Assembly (NCBI RefSeq): GCF_001027745.1
Contig: NZ_LECU01000004.1
Coordinates: 496,001-560,000, forward strand
Reading direction: 5' to 3'
Source: Pedobacter sp. BMA
GTDB taxonomy: Bacteria > Bacteroidota > Bacteroidia > Sphingobacteriales > Sphingobacteriaceae
DNA: 64,000 bases
Shown here: positions 28,803 through 49,300 of the stretch, piece by piece
How the letters are laid out: each line of letters opens with the position of its first letter
Numbering within the stretch: the stretch's first letter is position 1
Position numbers and translations under genes: made by a program
The notes under the pieces: generated by a model
Told to the model about the DNA's origin: nothing
Seen by the model: the letters and a program-made list of their open reading frames with translations, nothing else
Database searches by the model: none

Positions 28803-29546
28803 ATGAATCTAAAATGCGTTGTGATAGACGACGAGCAACATGCAATTGAGGTGCTAACTGACCATATTGCGGAGATGCCAGGTCTTACAATTTTTAAGAC
28901 ATTTACCAGCCCTGTTCAGGCATTGACAGAGATCAGTGTAGACGATGAAATTGATTTATTGTTCATGGATATTGATATGCCTGGAATCAATGGAATTGAA
29001 CTGGCTAAAAACATCAGGGAAAAGAGTAAGTATCTTATCTTTACAACAGCTCACCCCGACTATGCCCTACAGGCATTCGATGTGCAGTCAGACCAATACC
29101 TGCTGAAGCCGATATCATTTGCAAAGTTTGCTCTGGGAATTGACAGAATCCTAAAAAAAGAGGCTAATAATGCTAAGGCTTCGCTTAAAGAAGTAGAACA
29201 GGTTTCTGCTCTTTATATCAAAGGCGATCACAAGTATGCTTTCTCCAATATTGCGATTGATGAAATATTATATATCAAAGCTTTACAGAATTACATACAA
29301 ATTATTACCAAATCGGAGACGCATACCACGTACCTTACCCTGAAAGAAATCGAAAAAGCTTTGGAAAACCACGCCTTTATCCGGGTAAATAAATCGAATA
29401 TTGTGGCTAAGTCGGCAATAAAAAAGGTTGATGGAAATATTATCCGTTTAGTAAATAACGAAATGATCCAGATTGGCGAAGGCTATAAAGAAGCTTTCTT
29501 CGCCTATGTACAGAGTAGTTTATTGAAATCTAACAGAAGTCAGTAA
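28803..29546 (+). CDS. LytTR-family response regulator
   Basis: 247 residues. The receiver domain (1-120) has phosphoacceptor Asp56 in LLFMDIDMPG, Thr in LIFTTAHPDYA and Lys in YLLKPISF. A LytTR DNA-binding domain follows (about 145-240): DEILYIKALQNYIQI, TYLTLKEIEKAL, FIRVNKSNIVAKSAI. The likely kinase is the His_kinase protein at 30205-31320, separated from it by three small RiPP precursor genes on the other strand. The stop codon lies 5 bp from the end of the first precursor gene. It probably controls the precursors through the 21-bp repeats. Confidence 0.93.
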   Translation: MNLKCVVIDDEQHAIEVLTDHIAEMPGLTIFKTFTSPVQALTEISVDDEIDLLFMDIDMPGINGIELAKNIREKSKYLIFTTAHPDYALQAFDVQSDQYLLKPISFAKFALGIDRILKKEANNAKASLKEVEQVSALYIKGDHKYAFSNIAIDEILYIKALQNYIQIITKSETHTTYLTLKEIEKALENHAFIRVNKSNIVAKSAIKKVDGNIIRLVNNEMIQIGEGYKEAFFAYVQSSLLKSNRSQ

Positions 29547-29551
29547 ACCAG

Positions 29552-29692
29552 TTAGATAGCAACAATCCAGCTCGTCATTACAGTATGGCTTTGATCACCT
29601 GTGGGATTGGTACTGAAATTATTCTGATTTTTGACGTTTTTAAAAACGAAAACAGTTTTCTTGGCAAGTTTTGATGTATTCTGATTTTTCAT
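29552..29692 (-). CDS. RiPP precursor peptide A (Cys-free, LanB-associated)
   Basis: 46-residue peptide beginning MKNQNTSKLAKKTVFVFKN and ending HTVMTSWIVAI. A Lys-rich leader-like part (about 1-21) precedes a 23-residue end identical in all three tandem copies. That end has three Ser and four Thr and no Cys, Lys or Arg. Against copy B the 23 shared residues use different codons at about 11 places, including an AGT/TCT Ser switch, so the protein sequence is under selection. It is 38 bp after peptide B, same strand, and close to a lantibiotic dehydratase. The precursor role is inferred from context. Confidence 0.8.
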   Translation of the reverse strand: MKNQNTSKLAKKTVFVFKNVKNQNNFSTNPTGDQSHTVMTSWIVAI

Positions 29693-29730
29693 GATGAATT
29701 TTATATTGAAATGATGAATTGTTATAAGTA

Positions 29731-29871
29731 TTAAATTGCAACAATCCAGCTTGTCATTACGGTATGGCTTTGATCACCGGTTGGGTTAGTAGAAAAGTTA
29801 TTCTGAGCTTTAACATTCTTAAAAACAAAAACCGTTTTCTTAGTAAGTTTTGATGTATTTTGATTTTTCAT
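29731..29871 (-). CDS. RiPP precursor peptide B (Cys-free, LanB-associated)
   Basis: 46 residues, MKNQNTSKLTKKTVFVFKN start, differing from peptide A only at residues 10 (Thr for Ala) and 22 (Ala for Asn). The last 23 residues are identical to A and C. The start-codon context (AATTCATC before ATG) is repeated in front of A, which shows duplication of the whole unit. No transmembrane or Sec signal; the leader is probably read by the dehydratase. Confidence 0.8.
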   Translation of the reverse strand: MKNQNTSKLTKKTVFVFKNVKAQNNFSTNPTGDQSHTVMTSWIVAI

Positions 29872-29910
29872 GATGAATTCTTTTTTTAAATGATGAGGGT
29901 GAAATAGATA

Positions 29911-30063
29911 TTAGATTGCAACGATCCAGCTTGTCATAACGGTGTGGCTTTGATCACCAGTTGGATTTGTAGAAAAGTTATTCTGAGCCTTAACATTTTT
30001 AAAAACAAAAACAGTTTTCTTTGCAAGTTTCGAAGTTGTGGTGTTGTTATTTTGAGTTGCCAT
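29911..30063 (-). CDS. RiPP precursor peptide C (Cys-free, LanB-associated)
   Basis: 50 residues, first gene of the tandem set. A longer start (MATQNNNTTTSKLAKK) is followed by the same TVFVFKNVKAQ and the identical 23-residue end. It is separated from the divergent histidine kinase gene by 141 bp that hold the 21-bp-spaced repeats. Periods between the three starts are 179 and 192 bp. A plus-strand frame across this gene (29944-30165) is a shadow. Confidence 0.8.
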   Translation of the reverse strand: MATQNNNTTTSKLAKKTVFVFKNVKAQNNFSTNPTGDQSHTVMTSWIVAI

Positions 30064-30143
30064 TTTAATTATTATTTAGTTGTATTTTTCGTTGTTATTA
30101 ATTTCTGTAAAGGTGCGCCGTTAAGTTTAGGCTATCCATTTTT

Positions 30144-30197
30144 TTACACAAACCCTAGCATTTAAAAGATAAAAACCTCATTTACGTAGATAAAAAC
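30144..30197 (+). promoter_or_regulatory. Triple 21-bp-spaced direct repeat between precursors and kinase
   Basis: TTACACAAACCC (30144), AAAGATAAAAAC (30165) and GTAGATAAAAAC (30186) are spaced exactly 21 bases; the last two share AGATAAAAACCT. They resemble the set before the LytTR regulator. They lie 81-134 bp upstream of precursor C and end 7 bp before the kinase start, so they may act as activator sites for the precursors, as control sites for the kinase, or both. Confidence 0.65.
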
Positions 30198-30204
30198 CTA
30201 AAAA

Positions 30205-31320
30205 ATGTCTTTATTACCCTTTCAAAAATTTTTCAGAAACTATAAAATCCATTTATTAATCTGGAGTTTGTACATCATATATGAAGTATTCATTTTAGGA
30301 TATGCAAGTAAAAGATTCAGGGAACCTGGTGACTATGTCATTATTTACCTGGTCAACATTTCTACTTTCTACCTTTATGCTTTTTTTCTAAAAAAAATTC
30401 TAAATGATCAAAAGCTTTCACTTAGAATAATAAAGATTTCCTTGCTGATTGTATTCATTATTATAAATTATACCATCTCAACTTATATTCTGATTATTCT
30501 CTTCGAGAAAATTAAATTGATCGAAGAAAACTCATCCCCAGCTTTCGATAAAAATTTCATTGTACCGTGTATTTATCGCTCAATACTTTTCATTGGTTAT
30601 TCTACCGGCTACGTCTACATCCTGAAATCTTTTGAAGATAGGAAAAAAGTAGAAGCACTTGAACGTCAAACCCTTGTTACACAAATCGAAAAGCAGACTT
30701 TGGAAAATGATTTGGTGCAATCGCAAAATAACTACCTCCGGAGTCAGATTAATCCTCATTTTTTATTCAATACATTAAATTTCATCTATAACGATGCGCG
30801 CAAGAAGGCACCCATGGCTGCAGACGCAATTATGAACCTGGCAGAAATGATGCGCTATGCATTAAAAAGACCCGAAGCATCGGAAATGGTTCCGCTAAAT
30901 GAGGAAATTGAACAAATTGAACACCTGATCAACCTCCATAAGCTTAGAACAGCGAATACAATTAATCTGGAATTGGAAGTGGTTGGTGACTTATTTGGTT
31001 TACGCTTCCCCCCGCTTATCCTCCTTACTCTGGTGGAAAATATTTTTAAGCACGGTAATGTTACGCACTCCACACAACCTGCAGTAATTAAAATTGTATA
31101 CGAAAATAACAACTTAAATATCACAACCATCAATATGGTAAACGATAATAAAGGAAAACAAACTGAAAGTCATCACGTTGGAATAGACAACATTAATAAA
31201 CGTTTGGCCAACTTTTATGGCGAAGATTATTTATTCAGATACTACAGGGATCCTTTGAACAGATACATTACAGAAATCGATATCGACGTCATCAATCCAC
31301 TGGCTAAACTCAACCGTTAA
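30205..31320 (+). CDS. LytS/YehU-type sensor histidine kinase
   Basis: 371 residues. Four membrane segments at about 14-33, 44-62, 73-100 and 121-140 form the sensor part, without a large extracellular loop. A short coiled coil (145-178) leads to a His_kinase domain with His185 in QINPHFLFNTLNFIYND and an ATP-binding part (LILLTLVENIFKHG, HHVGIDNINKRL). It is the presumed partner of the LytTR regulator at 28803-29546. The gene converges on the dehydratase, the stop codons overlapping by 4 bp. Possible signals include the mature peptide; this is conjecture. Confidence 0.92.
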   Translation: MSLLPFQKFFRNYKIHLLIWSLYIIYEVFILGYASKRFREPGDYVIIYLVNISTFYLYAFFLKKILNDQKLSLRIIKISLLIVFIIINYTISTYILIILFEKIKLIEENSSPAFDKNFIVPCIYRSILFIGYSTGYVYILKSFEDRKKVEALERQTLVTQIEKQTLENDLVQSQNNYLRSQINPHFLFNTLNFIYNDARKKAPMAADAIMNLAEMMRYALKRPEASEMVPLNEEIEQIEHLINLHKLRTANTINLELEVVGDLFGLRFPPLILLTLVENIFKHGNVTHSTQPAVIKIVYENNNLNITTINMVNDNKGKQTESHHVGIDNINKRLANFYGEDYLFRYYRDPLNRYITEIDIDVINPLAKLNR

Positions 31321-34109
31321 CAACTCATAGCCTTTTGCCTTTGCAGCTCTTTGAGCAAAAAGTAGTACATAACCATTTCGTAAACCCGTTGATCTTTATT
31401 GAACAGACGGTTAACATGCATGTGCATCAGGTCGCTAAAGAGTTTAAAACGCCTTTGAGATGGACATTCCCCCAATGTCTTAATAAAGCTTTGGGCAAAA
31501 GCGGTAACTTTTGCCTGCTGCGCATCAGTAAATGCTTGAGGTAATGCGTTCTTAAACAACTGATACTGGCTGTTTAGCTTTTTGAAATCCGACGCATCAA
31601 GCTCATGTTCCTCATTGAATACGTCAGATATGAGTTTTGCCAGACTGATAAAATCTTTACCGTCGAAATCTACCGCAGCTTTAATCATCGCGATCAGGTT
31701 CAGGCAGTACCAGTATTTGTCAAATGGTTCGGATATTGTTTCAAATAACGACAGCACATATTCGCTATCAATATTGAAATGATCTTCAACCGCCACGATC
31801 AACTCAGCACCATAACGGGCAAGCTCTCTCTTATAGGTTTTGATCTGGACATCAGAAATCAGTCCGCAACTTAGGTATAAGTCAAGACCGCCCACAAAAG
31901 CGGAAGTAAGCAGCTGCCCATCTTGCCGATCATTTAGTAATATTCTAAAGCGAATGTGGTTTCCCCCCTCATTATACCGGATAAAGAACCAGCTTTTGAT
32001 GTGATCAGCATATTGGTCGACGAAAGGTGCAATAGTGTCCGCCAGGATCTGATCAGTACGTTGCTGATGGCAGAAAATTTCAAAATACAGCCACTCCTCT
32101 CCGGGTGGAAAGCTTTCTTTCACCTCTAAAAAAGAATCCGGCTGACTTATTCCATGATAAATTTTCTCCTTATGGTAAAGACCCAGAACGAACTGGGCGA
32201 GATAGGGCTTCCCGTACTCATCCATCACCGCGTTGGCATCGGGTAGCACCACTTCTTCAATGTAAAAGCTTTCTTGTTTCTGTATGTATAGCAAAAAGGC
32301 GCTTAAATCTTCATCACGATCCAAATGAAAACACAGGGTTTGATCCGACAGGCCTGTTTTAAAATAGGCACTTACATTCCTGTGTTTCAAATAATCCCTG
32401 CACTGTTCAATGGCTATCGGTTGTTTGTCGTGGTAGAAATTTGCCTTATAAAGCTTCCATTTACGGGGACTCAACACCACGTTCTGATACTGGAGTCGCG
32501 GATAGTCATCCATTTCCGGAAATAAGCCATCCAGCGGAAGTGAAAGACTCGTTTGGGCATGATGGTGTTGTAAGTCGCACAGCATACGGAACACGGATAA
32601 ATCAGACCTCGTATAATTGTAAGCAGATGCCATTTTCGGAACTATCCGCTTGTTCAGACTTTTGGACCTGAGAATGATTTCCGAGTTTCTGATGGAAATC
32701 TGAATGTCATTGAGTGAAAGTGGTTCTCTGGAGGTATCAAAATTTAAAATCGAAAGCTGGTGCTGATAAACCAGCTTCCTCCGGTTGATATTATCTACTG
32801 AAGCCTCAACCATATAGGCCACATCAAAAAACAACACATCCGGATTTGCCTCCTGCTCAATAGCAGCAATTTGTTTACAATAGGTTTCCACGGCACCACT
32901 GGCCATCGTAAAACGTCCACTTAGTGCATTTGCCGTCGGCCCGCCAATCTGATCTGCAAAGATTAAACCATCTGCAATCCGTAAAAGCATACTGATAGAG
33001 TTTGGTAGCGGATTCCTTTTTCCCAGGGGCGGAATGGAAAGCTTATTCAGGAAAATCGTTTCTCCATCTTTAAACTGTTGTGTATAAAGCTTTTGCGATA
33101 TTAAAGCCTTCACATCCCGGCCATCCGGTTTTTTCTGCTTGCGGATGCCAAGCTGCGTAATTAAATCATCACCATTCCCGGCGTGCTCCAGTTCATCATA
33201 ACCCACTCCTAATTCGGGGTCAAGGGCATGCATAAGGGGAACTTCCTTACCTTCAAATTTCTTGATAAATTTCTTTATAAATAACGCTAAGGCTTCCCGT
33301 TCACCTGCAGGAAGAATACCCTGCATAAAAGCTATGGCATCTGGTATGCTTTGTAAATCCTGTTGTGAGAGACTGCCCCAGGCATTTCTTTCTGCAATGA
33401 TATAGGTGGGCGAATCAACCTCCGTTTTTAAACCTATCCGGGTGAAATAATCTTCCCCTATAATATTTGCATCATAATTGGTAAAAATCAGCTGTAAATC
33501 GTGCATGTCGCGTAGCAGGTCGTGAAGGGCCAAGGTTCCCGGTTCATCCAGACCCAGTTTCTCTGGCAGGTCATTTAACCGAAGGGGCACCAGGCAGGCA
33601 TGCAGTATTTGAAGCACCAGGCCATCCTGTTCAATCTCGGCCAGCTCAAATAAACCATTGCTACAGGCAATGTACCGGATGGTATCGGGCAGCAGATAAA
33701 AGCTACTGTTACTGAATATTAAACAGTTATTGGCAATTAACTGACTAAAATCAAAATTGATATTATTTTTTAACGGCCAATCCATCAGGGATGTTGAATG
33801 CTGCTCACGATTGATCGTAACAGGCGTTACATCAGCAGAAAACGCGTGGTTTAATATACTGAAACTGGCAAAGGTTCCGTAGGGTGTAGATCGAAATTTA
33901 GCACGGTTAAAATACTTCCAGATCGTAAAGTAAACCTTTGGCGGTAACGCTGAAAGTTCACTGGCACTTACATCCTTAATGGTTTCATAAAAATCCGATG
34001 ATGATATGGCAATGGCCGCTTTTAATTCCTCCCAACAATCTGTTAATTCGGTTAAATAAGAAAACCTTGGGGTCCTGAATACTACTGTGGGGTGGATATT
34101 AACTTTCAT
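31317..34109 (-). CDS. LanB-type lantibiotic dehydratase, full length
   Basis: 930-residue enzyme expected to dehydrate Ser and Thr of a precursor peptide using glutamyl-tRNA. The glutamylation domain (about 1-640) has NRAKFRSTPYGTF, where Arg69, Arg73 and Thr75 match the spacing of NisB Arg83/Arg87/Thr89. The elimination domain (about 668-930) has WFFIRYNEGGNHIRFRI with Arg720 and Arg722, ELARYG with Arg765, and MHMHVNRL with His896. These correspond, from memory, to NisB Arg784, Arg786, Arg826 and His961, so both half-reactions look possible. No LanC, protease or ABC exporter lies in the window. The likely substrates are the three peptides at 29552-30063. Confidence 0.9.
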   Translation of the reverse strand: MKVNIHPTVVFRTPRFSYLTELTDCWEELKAAIAISSSDFYETIKDVSASELSALPPKVYFTIWKYFNRAKFRSTPYGTFASFSILNHAFSADVTPVTINREQHSTSLMDWPLKNNINFDFSQLIANNCLIFSNSSFYLLPDTIRYIACSNGLFELAEIEQDGLVLQILHACLVPLRLNDLPEKLGLDEPGTLALHDLLRDMHDLQLIFTNYDANIIGEDYFTRIGLKTEVDSPTYIIAERNAWGSLSQQDLQSIPDAIAFMQGILPAGEREALALFIKKFIKKFEGKEVPLMHALDPELGVGYDELEHAGNGDDLITQLGIRKQKKPDGRDVKALISQKLYTQQFKDGETIFLNKLSIPPLGKRNPLPNSISMLLRIADGLIFADQIGGPTANALSGRFTMASGAVETYCKQIAAIEQEANPDVLFFDVAYMVEASVDNINRRKLVYQHQLSILNFDTSREPLSLNDIQISIRNSEIILRSKSLNKRIVPKMASAYNYTRSDLSVFRMLCDLQHHHAQTSLSLPLDGLFPEMDDYPRLQYQNVVLSPRKWKLYKANFYHDKQPIAIEQCRDYLKHRNVSAYFKTGLSDQTLCFHLDRDEDLSAFLLYIQKQESFYIEEVVLPDANAVMDEYGKPYLAQFVLGLYHKEKIYHGISQPDSFLEVKESFPPGEEWLYFEIFCHQQRTDQILADTIAPFVDQYADHIKSWFFIRYNEGGNHIRFRILLNDRQDGQLLTSAFVGGLDLYLSCGLISDVQIKTYKRELARYGAELIVAVEDHFNIDSEYVLSLFETISEPFDKYWYCLNLIAMIKAAVDFDGKDFISLAKLISDVFNEEHELDASDFKKLNSQYQLFKNALPQAFTDAQQAKVTAFAQSFIKTLGECPSQRRFKLFSDLMHMHVNRLFNKDQRVYEMVMYYFLLKELQRQKAMSC

Positions 34110-34136
34110 TTGCAGGTTGTGAACAGGTGAAAATTA

Positions 34137-34166
34137 CAAAGATTATTTTGAAAATATAATAAACAA
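34137..34166 (-). promoter_or_regulatory. Candidate promoter of the lantibiotic dehydratase gene
   Basis: Minus strand TTG (34166-34164), 18 bases, then TAATCTTTG (34145-34137). The -7 box has one base too many against TAnnTTTG, so support is moderate. The leader would be about 20 bases. Confidence 0.35.
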
Positions 34167-34277: not shown

Positions 34278-36278
34278 CTATTTTTTGGTAACCTTAAACT
34301 CAGTCCTTCTGTTTTTTGCCCTTCCTGCTGGATTGTCTTTCTTCTTCCTGCCGTAGCCAATTGTATTTGGAGCGATAGGCATAGATTCACCATATCCCTT
34401 AGAAGTCATTCTGTTGGCAGCAATACCTTTACTGATCAGATAATCTACACAAGATTGTGCCCTGCGGTTGGAAAGGTCAAGGTTATACTCATCGGTACCA
34501 ATATTATCCGTATGTGCACTTAACTCAATTTCCATTTCAGGATTATCCTCCATAATCGGAATCAGGAAGTCGAGTACCAGTTTCGATGGTTCGGTCAAAT
34601 CAGCACTGTCAAACTCATAGTACACATTATCGAGTGTAATCGGAATGCCCAGCTTAAAAGGACTTAAACAGTAATCCTTATAGATCAGTGTATCGGCTTT
34701 TGCCAATTCCTCATAAGGATAGGTTTTCGTAATGGTAAAATAATTATCTTTTGAAAAAGCCAGTTTAACCGGGCGTTTTGAATCTACCTGAAAAGTATAC
34801 ACCCCATCAGTACCGGTGGTCATTTTTTGTTCGCTCTCTACGTTGGTTAGCGTAACCGACGCATCTGCAAGTGGTTTTTTAGTTTTACAGTCCGTTAAAA
34901 TACCCTTAACCGTTAGGAATTCTTTTCTGATTTCGAAAACTTCTAAACAGCATGACGATTCCCTGTCCGAGCTAATGAATCCTCTTGTCCCATTATTATC
35001 TGTCGCTGTGAAATAAACATCATCTTTTGAGGAGTTAAAAGGATAGCCCAGGTTTTTAGGTTTGGCCCAGGTAATCAGGTCGCCCTCAGCTTCAAAGAAA
35101 TCAAGACCGCCGAGCCCCACCCTGCCATCTGTACTAAAAAGGAGTTTTTTAGTTCTAACATTATAATATGGAGCGCGTTCGTCGTCTTCCGTATTGATGT
35201 CGGCACCCAGGTTAACCGGTTGCCCTAAAGTTCCATCTTCGCGGATGGTACAGAACCAGATATCATATCTCCCAAAGCCCCCGGAACGGTCAGAAGAAAA
35301 AAGCAAATACTTACCGTCACCAGTTACAAAAGGTTGTGTTGAATTGAAATCCCTGCTGTTTACTTCCAGACCAAGCGGTAAGGGGTCGCTCCATTTTTCA
35401 CCGGTTCTCCTGGCACTATAAATGGAGTAGTTCCCTTTGTCTATCCAGCCGGTAAAGTATAAGGTATTGCCATCAGGCGAAAAGCTTGGTGCCGCAACTT
35501 CTAAATTTTTTGGAAAAGTAATATCTACTGATTTAACTGAAACATCAGCTGCGGTTAAATCTCCGCTTGCTTTATACAGGTTATTAATAAATGGGTTGTT
35601 TTTTGTTGACACCTGCACTTCGCCTGCATCCGTTTTAACAATATCCTTTTTGCTTCCCACCGCAACCGGACGTGAGGAGGTAAAATAGAAGTCGCCATTG
35701 ATTTTTACCGGGGCATAGTTGGAGCCTAAACCATTGATATGACCTGGCATTTTCTTAATCTGAACCATCCTTGGGAAACGCATTTCTTCAATGGCAAATT
35801 TGCATGACTCAATTTCTTTCTGCGCATCTTTGGTTAACGGATCACCTGCATTTTTTTGTATAAACTGTGAGAATGCGGTTATGGCCTGCGTAAACTTTCT
35901 GTTGGCCCTTAGCGATTCTGCATAATAGAAAAGTGCTTTTCTAAAGCGCGTATTGCTGAAAGTGATGGCCACGCCATAGTATTTCTCAGCCTCGTTAAAC
36001 TCCCTGTAAAGTCTGCTCGACTCGGCCAGGTTGTAAATAGAGCCTTCATAATCTTCGATCACCCGCTCGTCAGTCGCTGTTTTTCTTTCCTTTCCATAAG
36101 GCAAAACCGCCTGAGCACTATCGCCGGTAATCTTTAATGCCTTTTTATAGAAAGTAGATGCTGCATAGTAATCTCCGTTCTCGAAGTAAGTATCGGCAAC
36201 TCTTTTATAATTGACCACATATTGGGCATGTGCAAAACCGCAAAAAGCTATTAATAAAATGAGTAATGTTTTTTTCAT
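34278..36278 (-). CDS. PorE-like OmpA-family protein (TPR, WD40-like repeats, OmpA)
   Basis: 666 residues with a signal peptide (MKKTLLILLIAFCGFAHA). TPR-like helices (about 25-150) are followed by WD40-like PD40 strands (about 200-430: FSPDGNTLYFTGWI, GKYLLFSSDRSGGFGRYDIW), a carboxypeptidase-regulatory-like fold (about 445-520) and a C-terminal OmpA domain (about 555-666: LSAHTDNIGTDEYN, LSNRRAQSCVDYLI). This layout is that of PorE and related peptidoglycan-binding proteins of the type IX secretion system. It is the last gene of the adhesin-PorP/SprF-OmpA cassette, 9 bp after the PorP/SprF gene. It probably anchors the outer-membrane partner to the cell wall. Confidence 0.9.
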   Translation of the reverse strand: MKKTLLILLIAFCGFAHAQYVVNYKRVADTYFENGDYYAASTFYKKALKITGDSAQAVLPYGKERKTATDERVIEDYEGSIYNLAESSRLYREFNEAEKYYGVAITFSNTRFRKALFYYAESLRANRKFTQAITAFSQFIQKNAGDPLTKDAQKEIESCKFAIEEMRFPRMVQIKKMPGHINGLGSNYAPVKINGDFYFTSSRPVAVGSKKDIVKTDAGEVQVSTKNNPFINNLYKASGDLTAADVSVKSVDITFPKNLEVAAPSFSPDGNTLYFTGWIDKGNYSIYSARRTGEKWSDPLPLGLEVNSRDFNSTQPFVTGDGKYLLFSSDRSGGFGRYDIWFCTIREDGTLGQPVNLGADINTEDDERAPYYNVRTKKLLFSTDGRVGLGGLDFFEAEGDLITWAKPKNLGYPFNSSKDDVYFTATDNNGTRGFISSDRESSCCLEVFEIRKEFLTVKGILTDCKTKKPLADASVTLTNVESEQKMTTGTDGVYTFQVDSKRPVKLAFSKDNYFTITKTYPYEELAKADTLIYKDYCLSPFKLGIPITLDNVYYEFDSADLTEPSKLVLDFLIPIMEDNPEMEIELSAHTDNIGTDEYNLDLSNRRAQSCVDYLISKGIAANRMTSKGYGESMPIAPNTIGYGRKKKDNPAGRAKNRRTEFKVTKK

Positions 36279-36287
36279 TTTCTTAAA

Positions 36288-37289
36288 TTATAAACGTGGA
36301 CAAAAGAAGTTTGGACCGATAATACCATTACGTCCGATCAGTGAAATGGATAATTCTAAACCACCATTGCTATTGGAAGCGCGATTAAATGACGATGTAT
36401 TTACATCATAACTTAAACCAAATACCATGTTTTTTAATTGTAACCCCACAAAAGCAATTGCGGCATCTTTTAAACGATAGTTACCGCCAAAAAGAATATT
36501 TGCGCTTGGGTTAACATTCAACTGGGCATATGCACCCAGAGAAGTTTCGCTGGTATTTCCCTGCGACATATACAAGGCATTGGGAACAATATCCAATAGT
36601 TGGGATGCTTTTATACGTGCACCACCATGTGCAGTAAAACGAACCGGGATACGGGAGTTCGTTCCGGAAAAGCGATCCATCGGGCGGGTTAAATGCGCAG
36701 CACTAACACCTGCAAATACGTTCACATTCTGGTTAGGATTTCCATCAAAAAACATTACACCCGCATTCACATCCGGTACAAGTGATGATTGCGAAGAAAG
36801 CGTCTCCCCACTCATCATCCCGCCGTCATAACCCGAAAGCGGATTAAACTGGTTTCCGAAACGCGCCTGGGAAAAATCAAAACTTCTGTTAATCACTCCC
36901 GCCTGTAATCCAAAATTTACTGTCTGCAAACCCTCTCTACCAAAACGTAAACGGTACGACCCGGAAACGAGAGCGGTGAGGTAGTTAAAATCTAACTCAC
37001 CTGCTCTTTGGTTTAATACGGTTGCACCGAAAGCGAAATTCTTTTTGGGGGCAAGATCAAAAGATGCTCCCCCGGTTAAAAACGAGCTGTTAAGTGAACT
37101 CCATTGTTGTTTGAAGTTTACCGAACCACGGTAATCACCATCAATAACGCCTGTTAATGCCGGGTTTAACCAAAGCGGATAGGCATAATACTGTGAAAAG
37201 TGGGGATCCGTTTGTGCAAAGGATTTAGTTGTACACAACGCTAATCCAACTATTGCCACATATATTTTAAAAGCCGATAGTAGTTTCAT
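36288..37289 (-). CDS. PorP/SprF-family type IX secretion membrane protein
   Basis: 333-residue outer-membrane barrel. The signal peptide MKLLSAFKIYVAIVGLALCT (ending SFAQ) sets the start at 37289; the frame runs further to 37358 without signal features. TDPHFSQYYAYPLWLNPALT is the hallmark N-terminus of PorP/SprF, and the rest is Gly/aromatic strands. In Flavobacterium, SprF is needed for secretion or attachment of the adhesin SprB encoded next to it. The position directly after the giant adhesin gene indicates the same role here. Confidence 0.93.
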   Translation of the reverse strand: MKLLSAFKIYVAIVGLALCTTKSFAQTDPHFSQYYAYPLWLNPALTGVIDGDYRGSVNFKQQWSSLNSSFLTGGASFDLAPKKNFAFGATVLNQRAGELDFNYLTALVSGSYRLRFGREGLQTVNFGLQAGVINRSFDFSQARFGNQFNPLSGYDGGMMSGETLSSQSSLVPDVNAGVMFFDGNPNQNVNVFAGVSAAHLTRPMDRFSGTNSRIPVRFTAHGGARIKASQLLDIVPNALYMSQGNTSETSLGAYAQLNVNPSANILFGGNYRLKDAAIAFVGLQLKNMVFGLSYDVNTSSFNRASNSNGGLELSISLIGRNGIIGPNFFCPRL

Positions 37290-37357
37290 GGTATTTATTT
37301 TTAACTGTTTATTATTTAATCCGCTTCTGACGCGCACAGTGCACTCAATGCTTTCCA

Positions 37358-40300
37358 TTATCTAATTAGGGTTACTGTTCCTTTTCTCATTGTTGTTGTA
37401 CCATCTTTAAAGGTGACATCAACGATGTATACATATACTCCGATTGGCTGATTTACACCTTTGAAAGTTCCGTCCCATCCGGCATTCATATTATCCGTTT
37501 GGTAAATTAACTGACCCCATTGCGTGTAAATCGTCATTTTTGCACTGGCTATGGTGGTACCGTAGATCATGAACGTATCATTCTTGCCATCGTTATTTGG
37601 CGTAAATGCGTTCGGGATATACACTTCATTTCCAAACGGATTAGTCGCTTTACCGGTAACCGCAGCAGATGTGCTGGTTTGACAATCAAGCTGTCCTTTC
37701 ACCCTTACGATGATTGTTGCACTTTGATCAGGTTTTAAACCAAGTACCGTGTATGAAGTTCCTGTAGCACCATTTGTTGGGCTAATCCAGGTGAGGCCAT
37801 TATCAAGTGATACCTCGTAAGCGGTGGCACCATTTACCGCAGGCCATGCAAATACAATACTGTTGGCCGTAGTGGTTTGCACTGAAACAACTGGTTTATC
37901 AAGCACCGGAAGTACAGTAACGGTTACTGCTGTTCTGGTTGGACTCGCACAGCCGCCTACTGCAATACTTTCTACATAATAAGTTGTAGTTGCCGTTAAA
38001 GCTGGCGTGGTAAAGGTTGTACCTTCAGCCAGAATGCTGCCTCCTGAACTTGCTGCATACCACCTGTAAACAAGGCCTGTTATTGGGTTATTTACCGTTA
38101 ACACGGTAGAACTGCCCGAACAAAGTGTACCGTTTGCTGCCGTTACCGAAGCTGGTGCTACCGGAACCGGTAAGGCTACTACATTAACAGGTGTTCTGTT
38201 GGCTGATGTACATGATCCGTTAGTACCTTCTACATAGTAGGTAATGTTTGCAGTGATAGCAGGAGTGGTAAAGTTTACGCCTGTACCTGCAATGGTTCCA
38301 CCGGTTGCCGTAGTGTACCAGTTATAGGTTACTCCGGTTTGCGGATTTGTTACCGTTAATATAGCAGGACTTCCGGTACAAACATTTACTGTTGTAGAGG
38401 CAACCGTTGGCACCGTTGGTTTAACATTCACCGTTACGGTTACTTTTACTCTGCCGCCGCTGTTGTTACAGCCACCCGCTCCTGTTGCAATTACATAAAA
38501 ATCTGTATTTGCAGTTAAAGCACCCGTGGTATAGCTGGTTCCGGTAAATAATAAGTTACCGCCTGTAGCTGCACTGTACCATTCGTAAGTTACGCCCGTT
38601 TGTGCGTTGCTTATGGTTAAAGTGGTAGCATCGCCTGCACAGATGTTAGTGCCATTTGTTGCCACTACCGGATTATTTGGAGCAGCGTTAACGGTGATGG
38701 TTACCACACGTGCTGTTGCCGGTGTGTTTTCACACTTGTTACTTCCTTTAACAGTTACATAATAAGTGGTAGTGGCTGATAATGCAGGTGTTGTAAATAC
38801 TGCACCCGTGAAAACTGGCGTAGTTAAGGCTGCATTGCTGTACCACGTAAATATCGGACTGGTTACTGTTGTAGATGAAGCAGTTAGTATTGCTGTGGAA
38901 TTGGTACAAATGGTTGTCGAACCACTCACTGCAATATCACTGGCCACGGCTACCGGATTCACCGTAATCGTTACCGCCTTAGCGTTAGCCGCTGTGTTCT
39001 CGCATTTATCAGCGCCCTTAACCGTGACATAGTATGTAGTTGTGGTGGTTAAGTTTGGCGTAGTAAATATAGGGCCGGTGAAAGCTACACTGGTTAATGA
39101 AGCATCATTGTACCAGGTAAATACCGGACTGGTTACTGTTGTTGAACTTGCAGTGATTACCGCCGTACCCGATCCGCATATGGTAGCAGGAGCCGACAAT
39201 GTAATGTCTGACTGAACTGCGCCTGCATTTACATTTACGGTTACTACTTTGGCCGTTGCCGCAGAATTTTCACATCTGTTGGCACCTTTTACAGTTAGGT
39301 AATATTTCGTCGTAGTCGTTAACGCTGGTGTAATGAACGTTGGACCTACGAAGGCTACCGTTGTTAAAGCGGCATCAGTATACCAGGTGAATACCGGACT
39401 GGTTACTGTTGTTGAGCTTGCTGCCAGGGTTGCGGTGCTGCCTGCGCAAATCGTTGCATCCGCTGCAGTAATGTCGGCCGCAGTTGAAACCGGATTTACG
39501 GTTAAGCTTACCGCTCTTGCAGTTGCGGCAGAATTTTCGCACTTGTTACTTCCTCTTACAGTTACATAGTAAGTAGTATTGGTTGTTAGTACCGGCGTGG
39601 TGAACACTGCTCCTGTAAACACAGCAGTAGTTAAGGCTGCATCGCTATACCAGGTAAATACCGGACTGGTAACTGTGGTAGATGAAGCAGTTAATACCGC
39701 GGAAGAACCTGCACAAACTGCAGTTGAACCACTTACCGTGATATCTGTTGCTACCGCAACCGGATTAACGGTCACCGTTACCGCTTTTGCATCAGCAGCT
39801 GAGTTTTCACATTTATTTGCACCCTTAACCGTTACATAATATGTAGTGGTAGTGGTTAAGCTCGGAGTGGTAAATATCGGTCCGGTGAAGGCAACACTCG
39901 TTAGTGATGCATCATTGTACCAGGTAAATACCGGGCTGGTAACTGTGGTAGAACTTGCGTTGATTACTGCTGTTCCTGATCCGCAGATGGTGGCAGGGGT
40001 TGACAAGGTTATATCGGCTTGTACCGCAGCTGGATTCACATTTACAGTGACAACCTTGGCAGTAATGGCTGTATTTTCACATTTATTATCGCCTTTAACT
40101 GTTACATAATATGTAGTAGTGCTGGTTAAAGCAGGGGTAATGAAGGTTGGCCCTACAAATGCCACTGTTGTTAAAGCCGCATTGCTATACCAGGTGAAGG
40201 TTGGGTTAGTTACTGTTGTTGTACTGGCAGCAAGTGTTGCTGTTGATCCTGCACATACAGTTGCATCGGCAGCAGTAATATCGGCGGCAGTCGAAACCGG

Positions 40301-43300
40301 ACTTACTGTTATGGTGACTACCCTTGCAGTGCCTGGTGCATTTTCACATTTATTATCACCTTTAACCGTCACATAGTATGTGGTAGTACTGTTTAAGGCC
40401 GGAGTGGTGAAACTTGCACCAATAAAGCTGATATTAGTCAGTGCAGCATCGCTATACCAGGTAAATACCGGATTGGTAACTGTTGGTGATGTTGCAGACA
40501 ATACCGCTGTTGAGCCTGCACACGCTATAGTGCTGCCATTTACGATAATATCAGTGGTAACAGCCAGTGGATTAACCGTAACGGTTACCATTTTAGCAGT
40601 TGCAGCATTGCTTTCGCATTTGTTGCTGCCTTTTACGGTTACATAATAATTTGTGGTAGTAGTTAAACCTGTAACGGTGAAGGTTGGACCCGTAAATACC
40701 GGAACGGTTAACGAAGCATCACTGTACCAAGTAAATACCGGCTGCGTAACAGTAGTACTTGACGCCATCAGCAACACGGTAGAACCTGAACAGATCTGAG
40801 CGTTGCTTACTGCAATATCGGTAGCTACTGCAACCGGATTAACGGTTACTGTTACAACTTTGGCTGTAGCCTGTGTATTTTCACACTTATTATCGCCTTT
40901 AACAGTTACATAATAAGTGGTGTTAGCTGTTAAAGCTGGAGTTGTGAAGTTTGGTCCGGTAAAGGCAACAGTTGTTAAAGTTGCATTGCTATACCAGGTA
41001 AATACCGGATTAACCACTGTTGTACTTCCGGCAGATAAGGCTGCTGTAGAACCTGTACAAACTGATGTTGGTCCGCTCACAGTGATATCAGCATCCGTTG
41101 CGATAGGATTAACCGTAATGGTAATTGCCCGTGCGGTAGCAGCTGTATTTTCACATTTATTGGTTCCACTTACTGTTACATAATAAGTTGTTGTAGCAGT
41201 TAAGTTTGGTGTAACAAACACCGGACCTGTAAATACTTTAGTAGACAAATCGGCTGTGCTGTACCAGCTGAATACCGGATTCGTTACCGTTGTGCTGGTT
41301 GCAGTTAAGCTTACCGTTGCGCCCCCGCATACCGTACTGGTGCCTGTTACGCTGATATCAGCAGCCACTGCTACCGGATTCACCGTAACAATGATTTCTT
41401 TAGCATTACCAGGTGTGTTCGCACATTTATTGGTGCCGCTAACGGTTACATAATAACGTGTTGTTGCAGTTATAGCAGGTGTATTGAACACTGCGCCTAC
41501 AAAAGCAACCTGTGTTAAGGCTGCGTCAGTGTACCATGTAAATATCGGACTGGTTACTGTGCTGCTGCTTGCAGTTAATGTAGTAGTTCCAGATGCACAC
41601 AATGTTGTTCCACCAGTTACCGTAATATCAGATGCTAAAGCCGCTGGATTTACAGTGATAGAAACTTTTGTACGTGTTGGATTTGAACAGCTACTGCCGC
41701 TCACCGCTTCAACGTAGTAATCATATACGCCAGGTAGCAGGGATGCAGAGGTAGTAAAATTGCTGTTGTTATTTACCAGCATGTTTCCTCCGGTAGCTGC
41801 ATCGTACCAGTTATAAGTAACACCTGCAACGGCCTGAACACTTAATGTTGCAGATGATCCTACGCAGGTAGAAGCCGGATTTGTTGTGCTCGCAATCGGA
41901 GTTACCGGCGGAGGTAAAATCATTACTACAACTGGAGTTGCAGGGCTCTCACAACCATTGGCTGTTGCAGTTACATTAAAGGTATAAGTTCCTGCAGCTA
42001 ATGCCGGGTTGGTGGTATAAGTAATACCATCAGCCTGGTAGGTAGTTCCGAGGTACCATTTATAGGTAATTCCTGCCTGAGGATTGGATACGCTTAAGGT
42101 TGCTGAAGATCCCTGACAAGCACTTGCTGTTGCTGCCGCCACAGTTGGTTTGGTAATGGTTCTTTGTGCGTAATCGAAGTTAACCGAAGTCAATGCACCT
42201 AAAATGCCTGAGCTTAGTCTTAATTCCACACCATCGAATCTGCTTGTTGGGATGTAGGTTAAGATGGCAGAATTTCCACCGCCTAGTAAATTTAATGTAA
42301 TTAGTGGATTAGAGATCGAAGTTACATCATTATTGCTGGTGTTGCCCTGGAAGGTGGTTACCGTTAGGTTTTGTAAAAGCGCAACTGATAACAACTGAGC
42401 TGGTACAGTAACTTTTACCCTTAAGGTGTCACCCACATTTGATAATCCAGGGAAGCCAACCTGATGATAAACGGAAGCACCAAGAGCACCTACCGGAATA
42501 ACCAGACTAGATCCTGTGTTTACATCATTATCAACCGCAAAAGTCGGATTAATTACGCCTGCAAGTAACGCAACACCGCTTACTCCGCTGGCAACAGTGG
42601 TAGTTGCTGAACCGCATGGTGTAGTTACCGGAGGTTGATTAATTACTGTTACTGTAACTGATGCACGGCTGGTAGCAGTACATCCGCCAGCAACGCTAGC
42701 CTCTACGTAGTAAGTTTTTGTTGCAGTTAATTGTGGTGTTACAAATGTTTCACCAGTAAATACCGGCACACCTCCATTCGCCTGTTCGTACCAGGTAATG
42801 GTGGCACCTGCAGTACTTGACGTAGCTTTTAGTACCGCTACTGAATTGGAGGTGATGGTAATAGACGGAGGCGTAATTACCGGAATATCAATTGTTCCTA
42901 AAGTAATGGTAGCCTCTGTTCTGGCCGAGGAAGTTCCGCAGGCATTAACCGCTGCTACGAAATAACTTCTGTTAGCAGTAATCAGAGGCGTTGTAAAACT
43001 GTCGCCGGTAATCAATACAGTTGTTGAGGTTGCATCATCATACCAGTTATAGGTCATTCCTGCTACAGGATTTTGTACTTGTAGGGTAACCAAAGTATTA
43101 GGACAAGTATTTACCGCAGCATTTAAAAGCGTTGGTGCAACTGGCGCCGGACTGGTAGTTACGTTCACTACTGTTTTATAGCTCACACATCCAGTTGCAG
43201 ACACAGCTGCCACAAAGAATCTGGTATCGCCTGTTAATGTTGGCGTAGTGAACACTATACCGTCTTTACCCGTTTGGTAAGCACCGCTGGCATCATACCA

Positions 43301-46300
43301 CCTGTAAGTTAAACCTGCTGATGGATTGCTCACACTGAGCTGTGCAGTAGAGCCAACACAAGATGTTACATTCGAAGATGTAACAGTTGGCGCAACCAGT
43401 ACGCGCTGAGCATAATTTACATCTATTGATGTTAATGCGCCTAATACGCCTGAATTTAACCTAACCTCTACCCCGTCGAATACGCTTGTTGGAACAAAAG
43501 TTACCAGTGCCTGGGTATTTCCACTTAGTAACTGAATATTTAAGGTATTGTTATTTAATAATCGCGAATCGCCATTGCTGTTGGTACCCACGTATGTGGT
43601 TACCGATGCATTGCCCAATAAGGCCAGCGACAATAATTTGCCTGGAGTTGAAACCAGTACACGAACAGTATCGCCCACAGTTGAAAGTGAACCAAAGCCT
43701 AAACGCTGATATACTGAGGCACCTAAAGCACCTACCGGCATTAATAATGATGAGGCTGTTTGTGTGTCGTTATCAATTGCTGATGTTGGATTAAACACAC
43801 CCGCAAGTAAAGCCACTCCGGTTACGCCACCGGTTTGTGTTGTTGCAGCTTCGCAAGGAACAGGATTTGGAGATCCGTTTCCATTAACCGTAATGGTAAT
43901 CTGAACACGGCTGGCTGAAGCACAACCATTTGTTGAAACTGCTTCCACGTAGTAAGTTGTGGTGGCGGTTAATGGCGGCGTTACATATGTGGTACCAGTA
44001 TATATCGGCGTTGTTGAAGTTGCCGAACTGTACCAGTTTAACGTATTGGTTGCATCAGCAGAAGTTGCCGTGATAATTGCAGACTGACCTGGACTTACTG
44101 TAGAGGCGTTTGCACTTACTACAGGGAGCGCCGGACGAGGGTTAACGGTAACCGCAGCAACCGCACGGGCTGCACTTGTACAATTTCCTTGCGCAGCTTC
44201 AACATAGTAAGTCGTATTGGCTAAAAGAGCAGGTGTGATAAATACCGGTCCTGTGTAAACCAAAGTACCGGCTGTTGCCGCATCATACCATCTGTAAGTT
44301 ATGGCTGCATCAGGATTTTGAACCGATAAAGTTGCGGTAGATCCTGCACAAACATTCACAATTGTAGCCAGTATTGGTGTTGGCAACGCAGGTGTTACCG
44401 TAACAGTAACCGGTACTCTGGTGGTATTGGCACAAGTGCCTTTACTCACCTCTATGTAATAAGTTGTTGTTGCGGTTAAAGCTGGGGTAGTGAATGTTTC
44501 ACCTGTACCCAATTGTGTACCGCCAGTAGCTGCATCGAACCAGGCAAGTGTTGTTCCACCGTTAGCAGTTGCAGTTAAAGTAGCCGTACTACCCGAACAA
44601 ATGGTTTGATTTCCGGCAGTTACCGTTGGATTCGGATAAACTGTAGTTGCTCCATAAATATCCAGGCTGGTAAGCGCTGTAAGTACACCTCCAAAATTAA
44701 CCTGTACCCTATCAAATGCCCCGCCCCCAACAATGGTTGCAGCAAAGCGGTTACCTGATAAAAGTTGAAGGTTTAGCAGTGAGGAGTTCAATTGAACGGT
44801 TCTGACAAGTGTCGTTCCGTTTAATACATTTAAAGTGACATTGCTTAATAAACCAACATCAGCTAAGCCACCTGGCAATGCCAGTTCTAAGCGGATGCTA
44901 TCGGTAGCTGTGCCTGGAGTGGTAAAAATAAGTTGTTGATATCCCGTTGATGCAACACCAACAGCCAGCGTAATTCTGGTAAAGTTAGTCGCATCAGCAT
45001 CTGTAGAATTACCTGCACCTGCAATATTACACAACAAGCAAATTCCGGTAATACCTGAATTCTGACTGCTTGCTGCATTACATGCTGTACCACCGCCACC
45101 GTTAATTACAGTAACTGTAACCGGAACACGTGTAGCACTTGGGCAACCTGATGCATTTGTTGTTTCAACATAATAAGTAGTAGTGGTTGATAGTGCCGGA
45201 GTAGTAAACGAACCACCTGTTGCCAGGGCCGTTCCTCCGGTTGGAGCAGCATACCAGGAAATGGTGTTTCCTGCATCGGCCGTTGCCACTAAAGTAGTGC
45301 TTTGTCCCGCATTAATTACCTGACTGTTGGTAGTAACCGTAGCTGGATTCGCAGCAGGGTTTACAGAAACCGTAACCGCTGTTCTTGAACTCACAGCAGT
45401 TCCCGAAACAGCTTCAACATAATACACCGTTTGTGCCGTTACAGCTGGCGTAACAAAAACGCCGGTATTGTTGGTTACCAAAGGTGTACTTCCTGTAGAA
45501 GCGTACCAGTTATAAGTAACACCAGCTTGTAAGTTGCTTACGCTCAAGGTAGCCGGGCTGCCTGAACATACTGTAGCCGCAGCCACAACCGGTGCATTCA
45601 CTGTTACGGTTAATGCATAGGCTGTAGTTGCCTTATTTCCGTTTGCATCTGTTGCAGTTAACGAAATGGTATAAGTTCCACCTAACGTTGGTGTGCCAGT
45701 AATCTCTCTGGTGGCTGTATTAAAGCTTAATCCCGGAGGTAAGCCTGTGGCCAGATAGGTGTACGGAGCTGTGCCACCAGTTACTGCTGGTAGTGTTTGA
45801 GTTGGATAAGAAGTACCTACAATACCATTCGGCAATGTAGCCCCAGGTAAAGATAGCACCCCTATAACCCGCAGGCCGTAGTTATTACTTGCTGTTTTGC
45901 CCTGACTATCAGTTACCGTTAAACCAATGGAGTAATTACCCGCCTGAGTTGGTGTACCTGTGATTTCCCTTGTTGCAGCATTGAAAGCTAATCCTGGAGG
46001 GAGGTTAGAAGCCACATAAGTAAAAGGACCAACACCCCCTACTGCCGAAGGCAAAGTTTGTGTGGCATATACGTTGCCTTCCATACCATCAGGTAAAGTG
46101 GCGTTAGGTAAACTCAAAGGATCGGCTACCGAAATGGTGTAATTGTTAGCAGCAGTTCTGCCTTTATTATCGGTAACCGTAACGGCAACAGTATAAGTAC
46201 CTGCCTGAGTTGGCGTACCGGTAATTTCGCGGGTTGTTGGATTGAACGTTAATCCCGGAGGCAAACCTGTTGCTGTATAAGTATAAGGAACAGTTCCGCC

Positions 46301-49300
46301 TGTTGCAGAAGGAATAATCTGCGTAGTGTAAACAGTTCCTGTTGTTCCGTTCGCTAAGGTTGCTGGTGGCAATGCCAAAGGATCAACAACGCTTAAAGTA
46401 TAGTTAGATGTAATGGTATTACCATTTGCATCAGTTACTGTAACCGGGATTGTATAGTTACCAACCTGTGTTGGTGTTCCGGTAATTTCTCTCGTATTTG
46501 GATTAAAAACCAATCCCGGAGGAATGCCTGTTGCAGTATAGGTATAAGGACCTGTTCCACCTGTAGCAGCAGGAATACCATTAGTGGTATAGGCTGTACC
46601 TGTTGTACCATCCGGCAATGCGCCAGGGGTAAGTGCTAAAGCAGGTGTTACAGTCAAAGTAAATGTTGCGGTAACCGAACAGTTTTTAGTATCCGTTACT
46701 ACAACATCGAAAGTAGGATTTCCGGTTGCAGTAGGGGTACCGCTTACCAACCCAGTGGTTGATAGGGTTAGTCCTGCTGGCAAAGTACTACCCGAAGCAA
46801 GCGCATAGGTATAACCTGGGGTACCACCTGTTGCCACAGGAAGCTGTACACTATATGGTGATGCAATTGTGGCATTTTTTAAGGTGCTGCCGGCAAATAC
46901 AATTGCCGGGTTTACCGTAACTGTTACCGGAATTCTGGTTGGGTTCGGACAGCCGTTTTTGCTAACCTCAATATAAAAAGTAGTTGTTGCTGTTAAAGCA
47001 GGTGTTGTGAAAGTTGATCCTGAAGTTCCGGTTCCGCCGGTGGCTGTTGTAAACCATGTTAGTACGGTATTTTCAGCCGGAGTTACGGAGAAAGTAGCTG
47101 TACTACCATTACAAATGCTTTGTGCACCTGTAATGATGGTTGGGTTTGGATAGATAATTCTTGCGCCATAAATATCTAGACTGCTTAACGCAGAAACAAC
47201 TGCGGCAAAGCTCACCTGAACACGGTCGTAAACACCGCCAGCGGCAACAGTAGCCGTAAAACGGTTACCACCCAACAGGCTTAGGTTTAACAAACCCGAA
47301 TTAATGGTTACTGTTCTGACTACCGTGGTACCGTTTAATACGGTTACGGTAATATTGTTCAGTACGCCAACATCAGCCAGACCACTTGGCAAACCAAGAT
47401 CTAGTTGAATGCTGTCTGACGCTACCCTGGCAAGCGATTGCGGGAAGATTAATTGCTGATATCCTGTTGCACCAACACCAACTGCCAAAGAAATACGGGT
47501 GAAGTTAGCGGCATCAGTATCAGTTGAATTGCCGGCATTTGCTATGTTACATAACACGCAGATTCCGTTGATTCCGGAATTTTGACTCGCTGCGGCGTTA
47601 CACGATGCGCCACCACCATTGTTGATTACGGTAACAGTTACCGGTACACGTGTTGCACTGGCACAACCTGCAGAACTGTTCGTTTGAACGTAGTAAGTTG
47701 TAGTGGCCGTTAATACCGGAGTAGTGAAAGTATTTGTATTTGAAAGTGAGGTTCCTCCTGTTGGAGTTGCGTACCAGCTTATGGTATTTCCTGCATCGGC
47801 CGTAGCGGCTAAAGTAGTGGTCTGGCCGCTGTTAATTACCTGATTCGCGGTAGTAATGGTTGCAAGTGTAGCAGGCGGGTTAACCGAAACGTTAACCTGA
47901 GTTCTGCTGCTCACAGCCGATCCTGAAACGGCCTCCACATAAAACACGGTAGATGAAGTTACAACCGGTGTGGTGAAAGTGCCGGTATTTCCGGTAACCA
48001 GCGGTGTACTGCCGGTTGAGGCATACCAGTTATAGGTTACGCCTGCTTGCGTATTGCTTACCGTTAAAGTAGCGGTGCTACCTGAACAAACAGTTGCAGA
48101 TGCTACAACCGGCGCATTTACAGTAACGTTAAGTGCGTAAGTGGTAGTTGCTTTATTGTTATTGGTATCTGTTGCTGTAAGAGAAATGGTATAAGGACCG
48201 CCAGTTGTCGGCGTGCCTGAAATTTCCCTTGTTGTCGGGTTAAATGTTAAGCCTGGAGGCAATCCTGTTGCCGCATAGGTAAATGAACCTGTACCTCCAG
48301 ATGCTGCCGGAAGTGTTTGTGGCAGGTAAGATGTACCCACAACTCCGTTAGGCAAAGTTCTGGTTGGTAAATTCACCGTACCCACAACTCTTATAGCATA
48401 ACTGTTGCTTGCCGTTTTACCCTGACTATCAGTAACGGTTACACCAATTGTGTAATTACCCGCTTCCGTAGGCATACCTGAAAGGATTCTTGTTGTAGGG
48501 TCAAATGTTAAGCCTGCAGGAACAGAAGTAGCTACATAAGTGTAAGGACCAACACCGCCTGTAGCTGCAGGAAGCGTTTGCGCAGCGTAAACCGCCCCTA
48601 CATTTCCATCCGGCAAGGTAGCTGATGGAAGTAACAATGGGTCGTTCACTACAATGGTATAATTTGTAGTAATGGTTTTTCCATCGCCATCCGTTACCGT
48701 TACTGGAACAGTATAGGTGCCTGAAGCTGTAGGTGTTCCGGCGATAGCCCTTGTTGTAGGGTTAAATGTTAATCCCGGAGGCAAGCCAGTAGCGGTGTAA
48801 GTATATGGAGTTGAACCACCTGTAGCCGAAGGAATAATCTGGGTAGTATAAACAGTACCAGTTGTACCATCGGCCAGTGTTGCCAGCGGTAATACCAGTG
48901 GATCTGTAATTTTAACAGTATAGTTCGATGTAACCGTGTTTCCATTTGCATCTGTCACCGTTACAGGAATCGTATAGTTTCCGGGAACAGTCGGTGTTCC
49001 GGTGATTTCCCTTGTAGTCGGATCAAATGCTAATCCTGGAGGCAGGTTAGTTGCAGTATAAGTATATGGACCGGTACCCCCTGTTGCAGAAGGAATGATT
49101 TGTGTTGAATAAACTGTTCCGGTTACCCCATCAGGCAAATTGCCCGGAGTTAACACTAATGCGCCAGTTACCACTAAAGTGTAGCTCGCTGTAGCTGTAC
49201 AGTTTTTGGTGTCAGTTGCGGTTATTGAGAAATTGTAAGTTCCGGGAACTGTAGGCGTACCAGAAATAATACCTGATGATGAAAGTGTTAAACCTGCGGG

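Follow-up and report, generated by a model that had tools for sequence, protein, structure and literature searches.

In the agr type of quorum sensing (AgrD-AgrC-AgrA), a small peptide gene is accompanied by a membrane kinase with a variable sensor and by a LytTR regulator, there is a co-varying specificity block, and maturation depends on AgrB. The LanB-like dehydratases of goadsporin and thiopeptide biosynthesis (GodF, TbtB) are split enzymes that give rise to dehydroamino acids without LanC rings, and PEARL enzymes are small LanB-like tRNA-dependent ligases without an elimination domain. Some precursors of the class II cyanotins have no Cys and cannot become lanthipeptides (PMC7268733), a survey of Bacteroidales reports no LanB there (PMC10352776), and LanC has served as the basis of genome screens (PMC3091789, PMC7268733). 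Here we describe a locus of Pedobacter sp. BMA, found in a 64,000-nucleotide (nt) stretch of contig NZ_LECU01000004.1 (positions 496,001 to 560,000; hereafter the window), in which three small peptide genes are flanked by genes for a LytTR response regulator and a histidine kinase, the latter adjoining a gene for a LanB-type dehydratase.

This locus probably represents a dehydrated-peptide signalling system, in which Cys-free peptides dehydrated by LanB are read by the neighbouring kinase. The reading is drawn from the recurrence of the module, the co-occurrence of LanB and peptide, further peptide-kinase-regulator trios away from LanB, the co-variation of peptide and sensor, promoter repeats and conserved catalytic residues; dehydration and signalling themselves are predictions made from sequence. 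In a broader form, to which we give about an even chance, it would be a Gram-negative pheromone system with one stand-alone LanB, linear dehydroamino-acid peptides, several kinase-regulator channels per cell and exchangeable peptide-sensor pherotypes, dehydration serving signalling and not lanthionine rings.

How does the locus compare with the systems named above? The signalling logic of agr is matched by the peptide gene, the membrane kinase (a likeness found in this analysis), the LytTR regulator and the co-varying block, the peptide being predicted to activate the kinase; unlike agr, maturation is predicted to rely on LanB instead of AgrB, the host is Gram-negative, and a thiolactone is impossible in Cys-free peptides. 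With the nisin system (NisB/NisC, NisK/NisR) the locus shares a full-length LanB-family enzyme, a precursor with leader and core, and two-component regulation, and as far as dehydration the enzyme would work like NisB; the differences are the missing LanC, the Cys-free precursor, the lack of a recurrent transporter, protease or immunity gene, the LytTR regulator and the presence of further peptide-kinase trios in one genome. GodF and TbtB are alike in fold matches and in the ring-free dehydroamino acids that are predicted here, but they are split whereas the present enzyme is full length, and among the named gene clusters none that accompanies the module repeatedly encodes an azole or pyridine enzyme. 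Unlike a PEARL, the enzyme has a Lant_dehydr_C domain and keeps its elimination residues. The class I lanthipeptides of Pedobacter lusitanus NL19 (PedA15) come from the same genus and enzyme class (as cited in PMC12328550 and PMC10609062), but, being described as lanthipeptides, these products carry thioether rings. The cyanotins depend on a LanM-type enzyme instead of LanB, and the cyanotin passages of PMC7268733 mention no kinase pairing. Among open-licence papers searched by title, beginning of abstract and passages, none was found that pairs Cys-free LanB substrates with a LytTR system.

The peptide genes form a tandem array in the 658-nt gap between the regulator and kinase open reading frames (ORFs), on the opposite strand (Table 1), the nearest of them 1254 nt from the LanB gene and the array no more than about 140 nt from the kinase start. 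Peptides 2 and 3 are 96% and 91% identical to peptide 1; all three share the leader sequence KLxKKTVFVFK and the same 23-residue C-terminal tail with three Ser, four Thr and no Cys. No family was assigned to them by Pfam and NCBIfam scans. A first-pass annotation of the window had already noticed three such genes in a gap of about 650 bp and within 1.3 kb of LanB, as well as the composition of their common C-terminal part, and all of this holds.

Table 1. Coordinates of the features of the peptide-LanB locus (window positions)
Feature	Position	Strand	Remarks
LytTR response regulator, 247 amino acids (aa) (Response_reg + LytTR)	28803..29546	+	Pfam
Peptide gene 1, 46 aa	29552..29692	-	KxxxFxxK-motif leader and Ser/Thr-rich Cys-free core
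Peptide gene 2, 46 aa	29731..29871	-	
Peptide gene 3, 50 aa	29911..30063	-	first in transcription order
Peptide promoter: 21-bp-period direct repeats, a candidate site for the regulator	30146..30198	-	two exact copies at 30167-30198, weaker third downstream; binding putative
PF06580 histidine kinase, 371 aa; variable residues 1 to ~140 with four predicted membrane helices	30205..31320	+	
LanB-type dehydratase, 930 aa	31317..34109	-	glutamylation and elimination residues kept
Conserved -7-like promoter element, upstream of LanB (TAATCTTTGTAATTTTC)	34129..34145	-	

The dehydratase combines Lant_dehydr_N (E 1e-55) and Lant_dehydr_C (E 5e-53) in one protein and is the sole PF14028 match in its genome (5.04 Mb, 100% complete, 20 contigs). 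A phmmer alignment to NisB (4wd9) places Y66, R69, R73 and T75 at the glutamylation residues Y80, R83, R87 and T89 of NisB, and R720, R722, R765 and H896 at R784, R786, R826 and H961 on the elimination side, R765 being a residue that we take to belong there. In NisB, the mutants Y80F and H961A are inactive and those of R83, R87, T89 and R784 are impaired to varying degree, R826 being absent from the passages concerned (PMC4341554). Comparison of 101 LanBs (41 from loci close to that of the window, 40 from distant loci, and others of about 1005 aa) found Y66, R69, R73, R720, R722 and H896 identical in every one; T75 is kept in 41/41 close LanBs and replaced in 4/40 distant ones and in 7/17 of the ~1005-aa enzymes, 3/17 of which also have Lys at R765. 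An AlphaFold model (predicted local distance difference test (pLDDT) 86, predicted template modelling score (pTM) 0.73) has its best fold matches in MadB, NisB and MibB, followed by TbtB and GodF. On both domains, the catalytic residues and a modelled fold like those of NisB and MibB, the enzyme is classed as a class I LanB, full-length and with the residues Arg69, Arg73, Thr75, Arg720, Arg722, Arg765 and His896 as the first-pass annotation had proposed, and it likely dehydrates Ser and Thr of the peptides.

The absence of LanC that had been reported for the 64 kb extends to the whole genome, in which a search with PF05147 gave no match. Across 145 genomes of the genus, PF05147 matches in 52; among the 56 genomes whose full-length LanB is at least 50% identical to that of the window, 28 have no match (lists read by eye), and in the other 28 the match is either on a different contig or separated from LanB by more than 200 kb, with one exception (G410). 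The LanC of that genome, 6 kb off, was rejected as part of the module, as it adjoins a separate second LanB of 1032 aa. Since the peptides have no Cys (0/3 in the window), lanthionine or methyllanthionine rings cannot form within them, and with neither a core Cys nor a LanC in the genome the locus is not filed as a lanthipeptide locus.

The peptides are confirmed, on sequence comparison, as real genes beyond chance, since a protein search retrieves 71 proteins at E<=1, counting those of the window, and the ratio of nonsynonymous to synonymous polymorphism (pN/pS) of the leader is 0.26 across the 41 close loci, which were examined out of the 56 genomes with close LanBs (peptides counted at E<=1e-3). 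The matches that carry an organism name come from Pedobacter, plus one record called Flavobacterium sp. W4I14. The close loci hold 111 peptide copies (100 unique, one to eight per locus, a few being broken), and K, F and K of the KxxxFxxK leader motif are unchanged in 111/111; the cores consist of 11.6% Ser and 14.2% Thr, and the first copy lies about 1250 nt from LanB in most loci, roughly the length of the kinase gene. In the genus survey (145 genomes; cut-offs E<=0.01 for the peptide profile and E<=1e-30 for LanB), peptides were found in 71 genomes and LanB in 115; 70/71 peptide-positive genomes have a LanB match, and a peptide occurs in only 1/30 LanB-negative ones (G421, 80% complete), giving a Fisher p of 3e-9 with each genome taken as independent. 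Peptide matches are present in 56/56 genomes with a close full-length LanB.

How strict is the lack of Cys? Copies without it make up 107/111 in the close loci, all four exceptions belonging to a single close-clade species, P. rhodius (L061), in which four of five copies have Cys. Farther away, a peptide matches at E<0.1 in 23 of the 40 distant loci, most of the remainder probably having candidates by a looser text filter judged by eye; 10/20 of the loci with ~1005-aa LanBs, originally picked as controls, have a short peptide rich in Thr whose gene diverges from that of the kinase, one (L131) has a classical Cys-rich precursor, and such a peptide was found in 7/11 non-Pedobacter loci examined (Mucilaginibacter, Taibaiella, Olivibacter, Sphingobacterium). 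Some of these relatives have a Cys, often near the C-terminus (L072, L085, L098, L107, L109, L206, L209, L234 and L239), usually a single residue, though L107 and L109 have two or three, so that one thioether ring would be possible there. Strict absence of Cys is thus no rule in the wider family. The first-pass view of a locus for ribosomally synthesized and post-translationally modified peptides is supported in part: its full-length LanB, Cys-free substrates and lack of a linked cyclase stand on conservation, co-occurrence and residues. Frame-shifted or truncated copies within tandem arrays (L049, L068) suggest turnover of copies in the array.

That earlier reading went no further than the chemistry. 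It overlooked the pairing with kinase and regulator, the additional trios and the co-variation, all of which alter the likeliest role of the peptides. When ORFs of at least 100 aa were clustered in 101 loci (41 close, 40 distant, 20 with ~1005-aa LanBs), every close locus (41/41) and every ~1005-aa locus (20/20) had the regulator as well as the kinase, and of the distant loci 38/40 had the regulator and 35/40 the kinase; besides LanB no other gene was as widespread. Kinase and regulator both lie within 5 kb of LanB in 77 of 80 named loci, the exceptions being L203 and a Chitinophaga locus (L226) with neither, and L237 without the regulator; we estimate the chance of such a kinase within 5 kb at about 3%, given 16 of them in a 5-Mb genome. 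In the window, the kinase and LanB genes are convergent and overlap by 4 nt.

The region from the kinase to the first peptide gene is conserved in the 41 close loci, with a self-identity of 0.48 at lag 21 against about 0.30 in shuffles, a maximum that is broadened over lags 19-23 by shoulders and followed by another at lag 42; the best repeat reaches at least 9/11 matches in 31 loci, in 19 of them at lag 21. A further 45 loci have a clear excess at lag 21 only (z 6.0, a score that, like the other repeat z-scores, ignores shared ancestry). LytTR regulators usually bind sites of such a form, and by this analogy we infer that the regulator binds the 21-bp repeats. The upstream consensus of LanB has no repeat of this period. 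A search of the genome for a wider regulon, with the two-repeat pattern and up to three mismatches, found the window site only.

Three more trios, with the peptide between regulator and kinase and no LanB near, are present in the same genome outside the window (C8, L137; C9, L138; C2, L157). Five other genomes each have one extra peptide locus by a weak profile match, a trio in three of them (L140, L141, L143); at L142 a kinase and a regulator are present, but the peptide there failed the filter, and L139 has a peptide without a listed pair. A rule for gap peptides (30-75 aa, encoded on the opposite strand and upstream of the kinase by no more than 600 nt, with at least four K/R in the first 25 and six S/T in the last 25 residues), fixed after the peptides of the Pedobacter sp. 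BMA genome were known, found them at 4/16, 3/7 and 4/20 kinase loci of three LanB-positive genomes (11/43) against 0/11 and 0/19 in two LanB-negative ones (0/30, with 19 of the 37 kinase matches of G362 covered; Fisher p 0.002). These trios have no LanB nearby, and in each of the three LanB-positive genomes a single LanB match was found; the enzyme would hence act in trans, and one dehydratase may serve several channels. Two side observations are that large genes with SusC-like starts (judged by eye) lie close to L137 and L138, and that the LanB-negative G362 has 37 PF06580 matches, more than the 16 of the Pedobacter sp. BMA genome and the 7 to 20 of three further genomes.

In the 41 close loci, with one peptide taken per locus, the mean distances of peptide core (0.52) and kinase residues 1-150 (0.53) exceed those of the rest of the kinase (0.18), the regulator (0.09), LanB (0.39) and a neighbouring Hsp90 (0.06). 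Partial Mantel tests relate peptide to sensor distance (r 0.59, p 0.002, the floor of 499 permutations), compared with r 0.02-0.15 (p 0.08-0.42) for four others including LanB, the regulator and a housekeeping gene, and in 20 disjoint nearest pairs the peptide correlates most closely with the sensor (Spearman 0.81), ahead of the kinase half (0.40) and LanB (0.31). Co-variation peaks at kinase residues 31-60 and 91-120, over two predicted loops (36-40, 103-115) of a modelled four-helix sensor (pLDDT 81, pTM 0.46), which are probably periplasmic. When close relatives are compared at the DNA level (four pairs), LanB and the kinase half are 0.81-0.99 identical and the regulator at least 0.91, whereas identity falls to 0.49-0.70 across the sensor codons, 0.70-0.77 across the promoter bin and at most 0.80 across the peptide bins; a pair of the same type has no drop over sensor and peptides. 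Among 59 pairs with LanB distances below 0.15, sensor distance is at least 0.35 in 42 (mean peptide distance 0.42), below 0.15 in eight (0.07) and intermediate in nine. Thus, as in peptide-kinase signalling, the peptide gene adjoins kinase and regulator and the peptide co-varies with the sensor domain, linkage remaining an alternative cause.

Several observations weigh against a signalling role. An exporter, a protease or an outer-membrane route did not recur in the identified clusters of the 101 loci, where not every cluster was scanned and unlinked genes are not covered; dedicated export and processing of the agr or nis type were likewise not found in those clusters. The three trios have a peptide that is not beside LanB, so modification there is a guess. 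Across distant species, three peptide-kinase pairs (identity 0.51 in the sensor and 0.89 in the kinase part) have a contrast like that of 27 control pairs (0.47 and 0.81, respectively). Sensor swaps also occur in a control kinase that lacks a peptide of this kind, in 37/57 near pairs compared with 41/57 for the peptide kinase (14 genomes). Finally, as the peptide genes adjoin the sensor codons, shared recombination could give co-variation, and Mantel tests and lag z-scores remove shared ancestry incompletely. Hypervariability of the sensor alone and sensor swaps alone were dropped as arguments, given the equal contrast and the nearly equal swapping in the controls. This control kinase (L146, G000:C6 near 516.8 kb, with orthologues L299-L312) is a PF06580 protein beside ABC-transporter-type genes, with a kinase half near-identical across species, a sensor half in strongly different types and no linked Thr-rich peptide; a second control kinase swaps its sensor in 0/46 pairs.

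Could the product be a weapon rather than a signal? A dehydrated linear antimicrobial, with the kinase-regulator pair only controlling its production, perhaps by nisin-like autoinduction, is an unlikely alternative. LanB relatives mostly make antimicrobials, and tandem copies with varied cores would suit a bacteriocin; nisin itself is sensed by NisK/NisR (PMC8895600). Nevertheless, the clustering of the 101 loci found no immunity gene recurring with the module, nor an export gene, further trios exist without LanB nearby, and the peptide core varies with the sensor.

Somewhat less probable still, though a live alternative, is that position only accounts for the linkage, i.e. that recombination moves the sensor block in one piece, taking along peptide genes whose LanB products have another role. 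The closeness of the peptide genes to the kinase start, some 140 nt or less, and the control kinase beside ABC-transporter genes, which swaps its sensor without such a peptide, speak for this; yet in 4/4 pairs the divergent block is bounded by the regulator gene on one side and lies within about the first 140 kinase residues on the other, peptide, kinase and regulator stay together in the three further trios of the same genome, and peptide distance tracks the cognate sensor (r 0.67, partial 0.67) above the first control sensor (0.30, partial 0.26). That LanB does not dehydrate these peptides, glutamylating without elimination or acting on another substrate, so that they work unmodified, is the least probable alternative: no product is known and trios are located away from LanB, but the elimination residues R720, R722 and H896 and the leader motif are invariant as described, and gap peptides were not found at the 30 kinase loci covered in the two LanB-negative genomes.

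Under the preferred signalling interpretation, LanB would bind the conserved KxxxFxxK leader and install dehydrobutyrine and dehydroalanine, without lanthionine rings, in the core, after which an unlinked exporter and protease would free the mature peptide. This peptide would meet the membrane sensor of the kinase, probably at the two predicted periplasmic loops, and the regulator would then switch on the peptide promoter via the 21-bp repeats, LanB acting in trans on distant trios as a maturation enzyme shared by several channels.

Among the other neighbours, those that recur and are identified by Pfam are Hsp90, HSDR_N, SUF, SusD, PorP and OmpA; these were rejected as linked maturation genes, as they resemble housekeeping genes or local synteny, and a few more lack a Pfam match. 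The Hsp90 and HSDR_N genes occur in 41/41 close loci and in none elsewhere, which we read as synteny. Upstream of LanB, the window has an OmpA/PorE-like gene, a PorP/SprF gene and a 4491-aa ORF (34278-50833, minus strand), the first two also standing beside LanB in 31/41 and 30/41 close loci. At the ~1005-aa LanB loci L112-L128, SusD-type, MauE-type or SUF genes adjoin, and ten of these loci have a protein of about 386 aa without a Pfam match near the peptide position.

What would follow if the signalling interpretation is true? Lanthipeptide-type dehydratases would have a second, signalling role that does without cyclases, and genome mining anchored on LanC (PMC7268733, PMC3091789) starts from a gene with no counterpart in this module. 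The many natural peptide-sensor pairs of soil bacteria would make signal specificity directly testable. Bacteroidota would communicate by peptides in a manner known chiefly from Gram-positives, and for Gram-negative bacteria this kind of peptide communication would be new.

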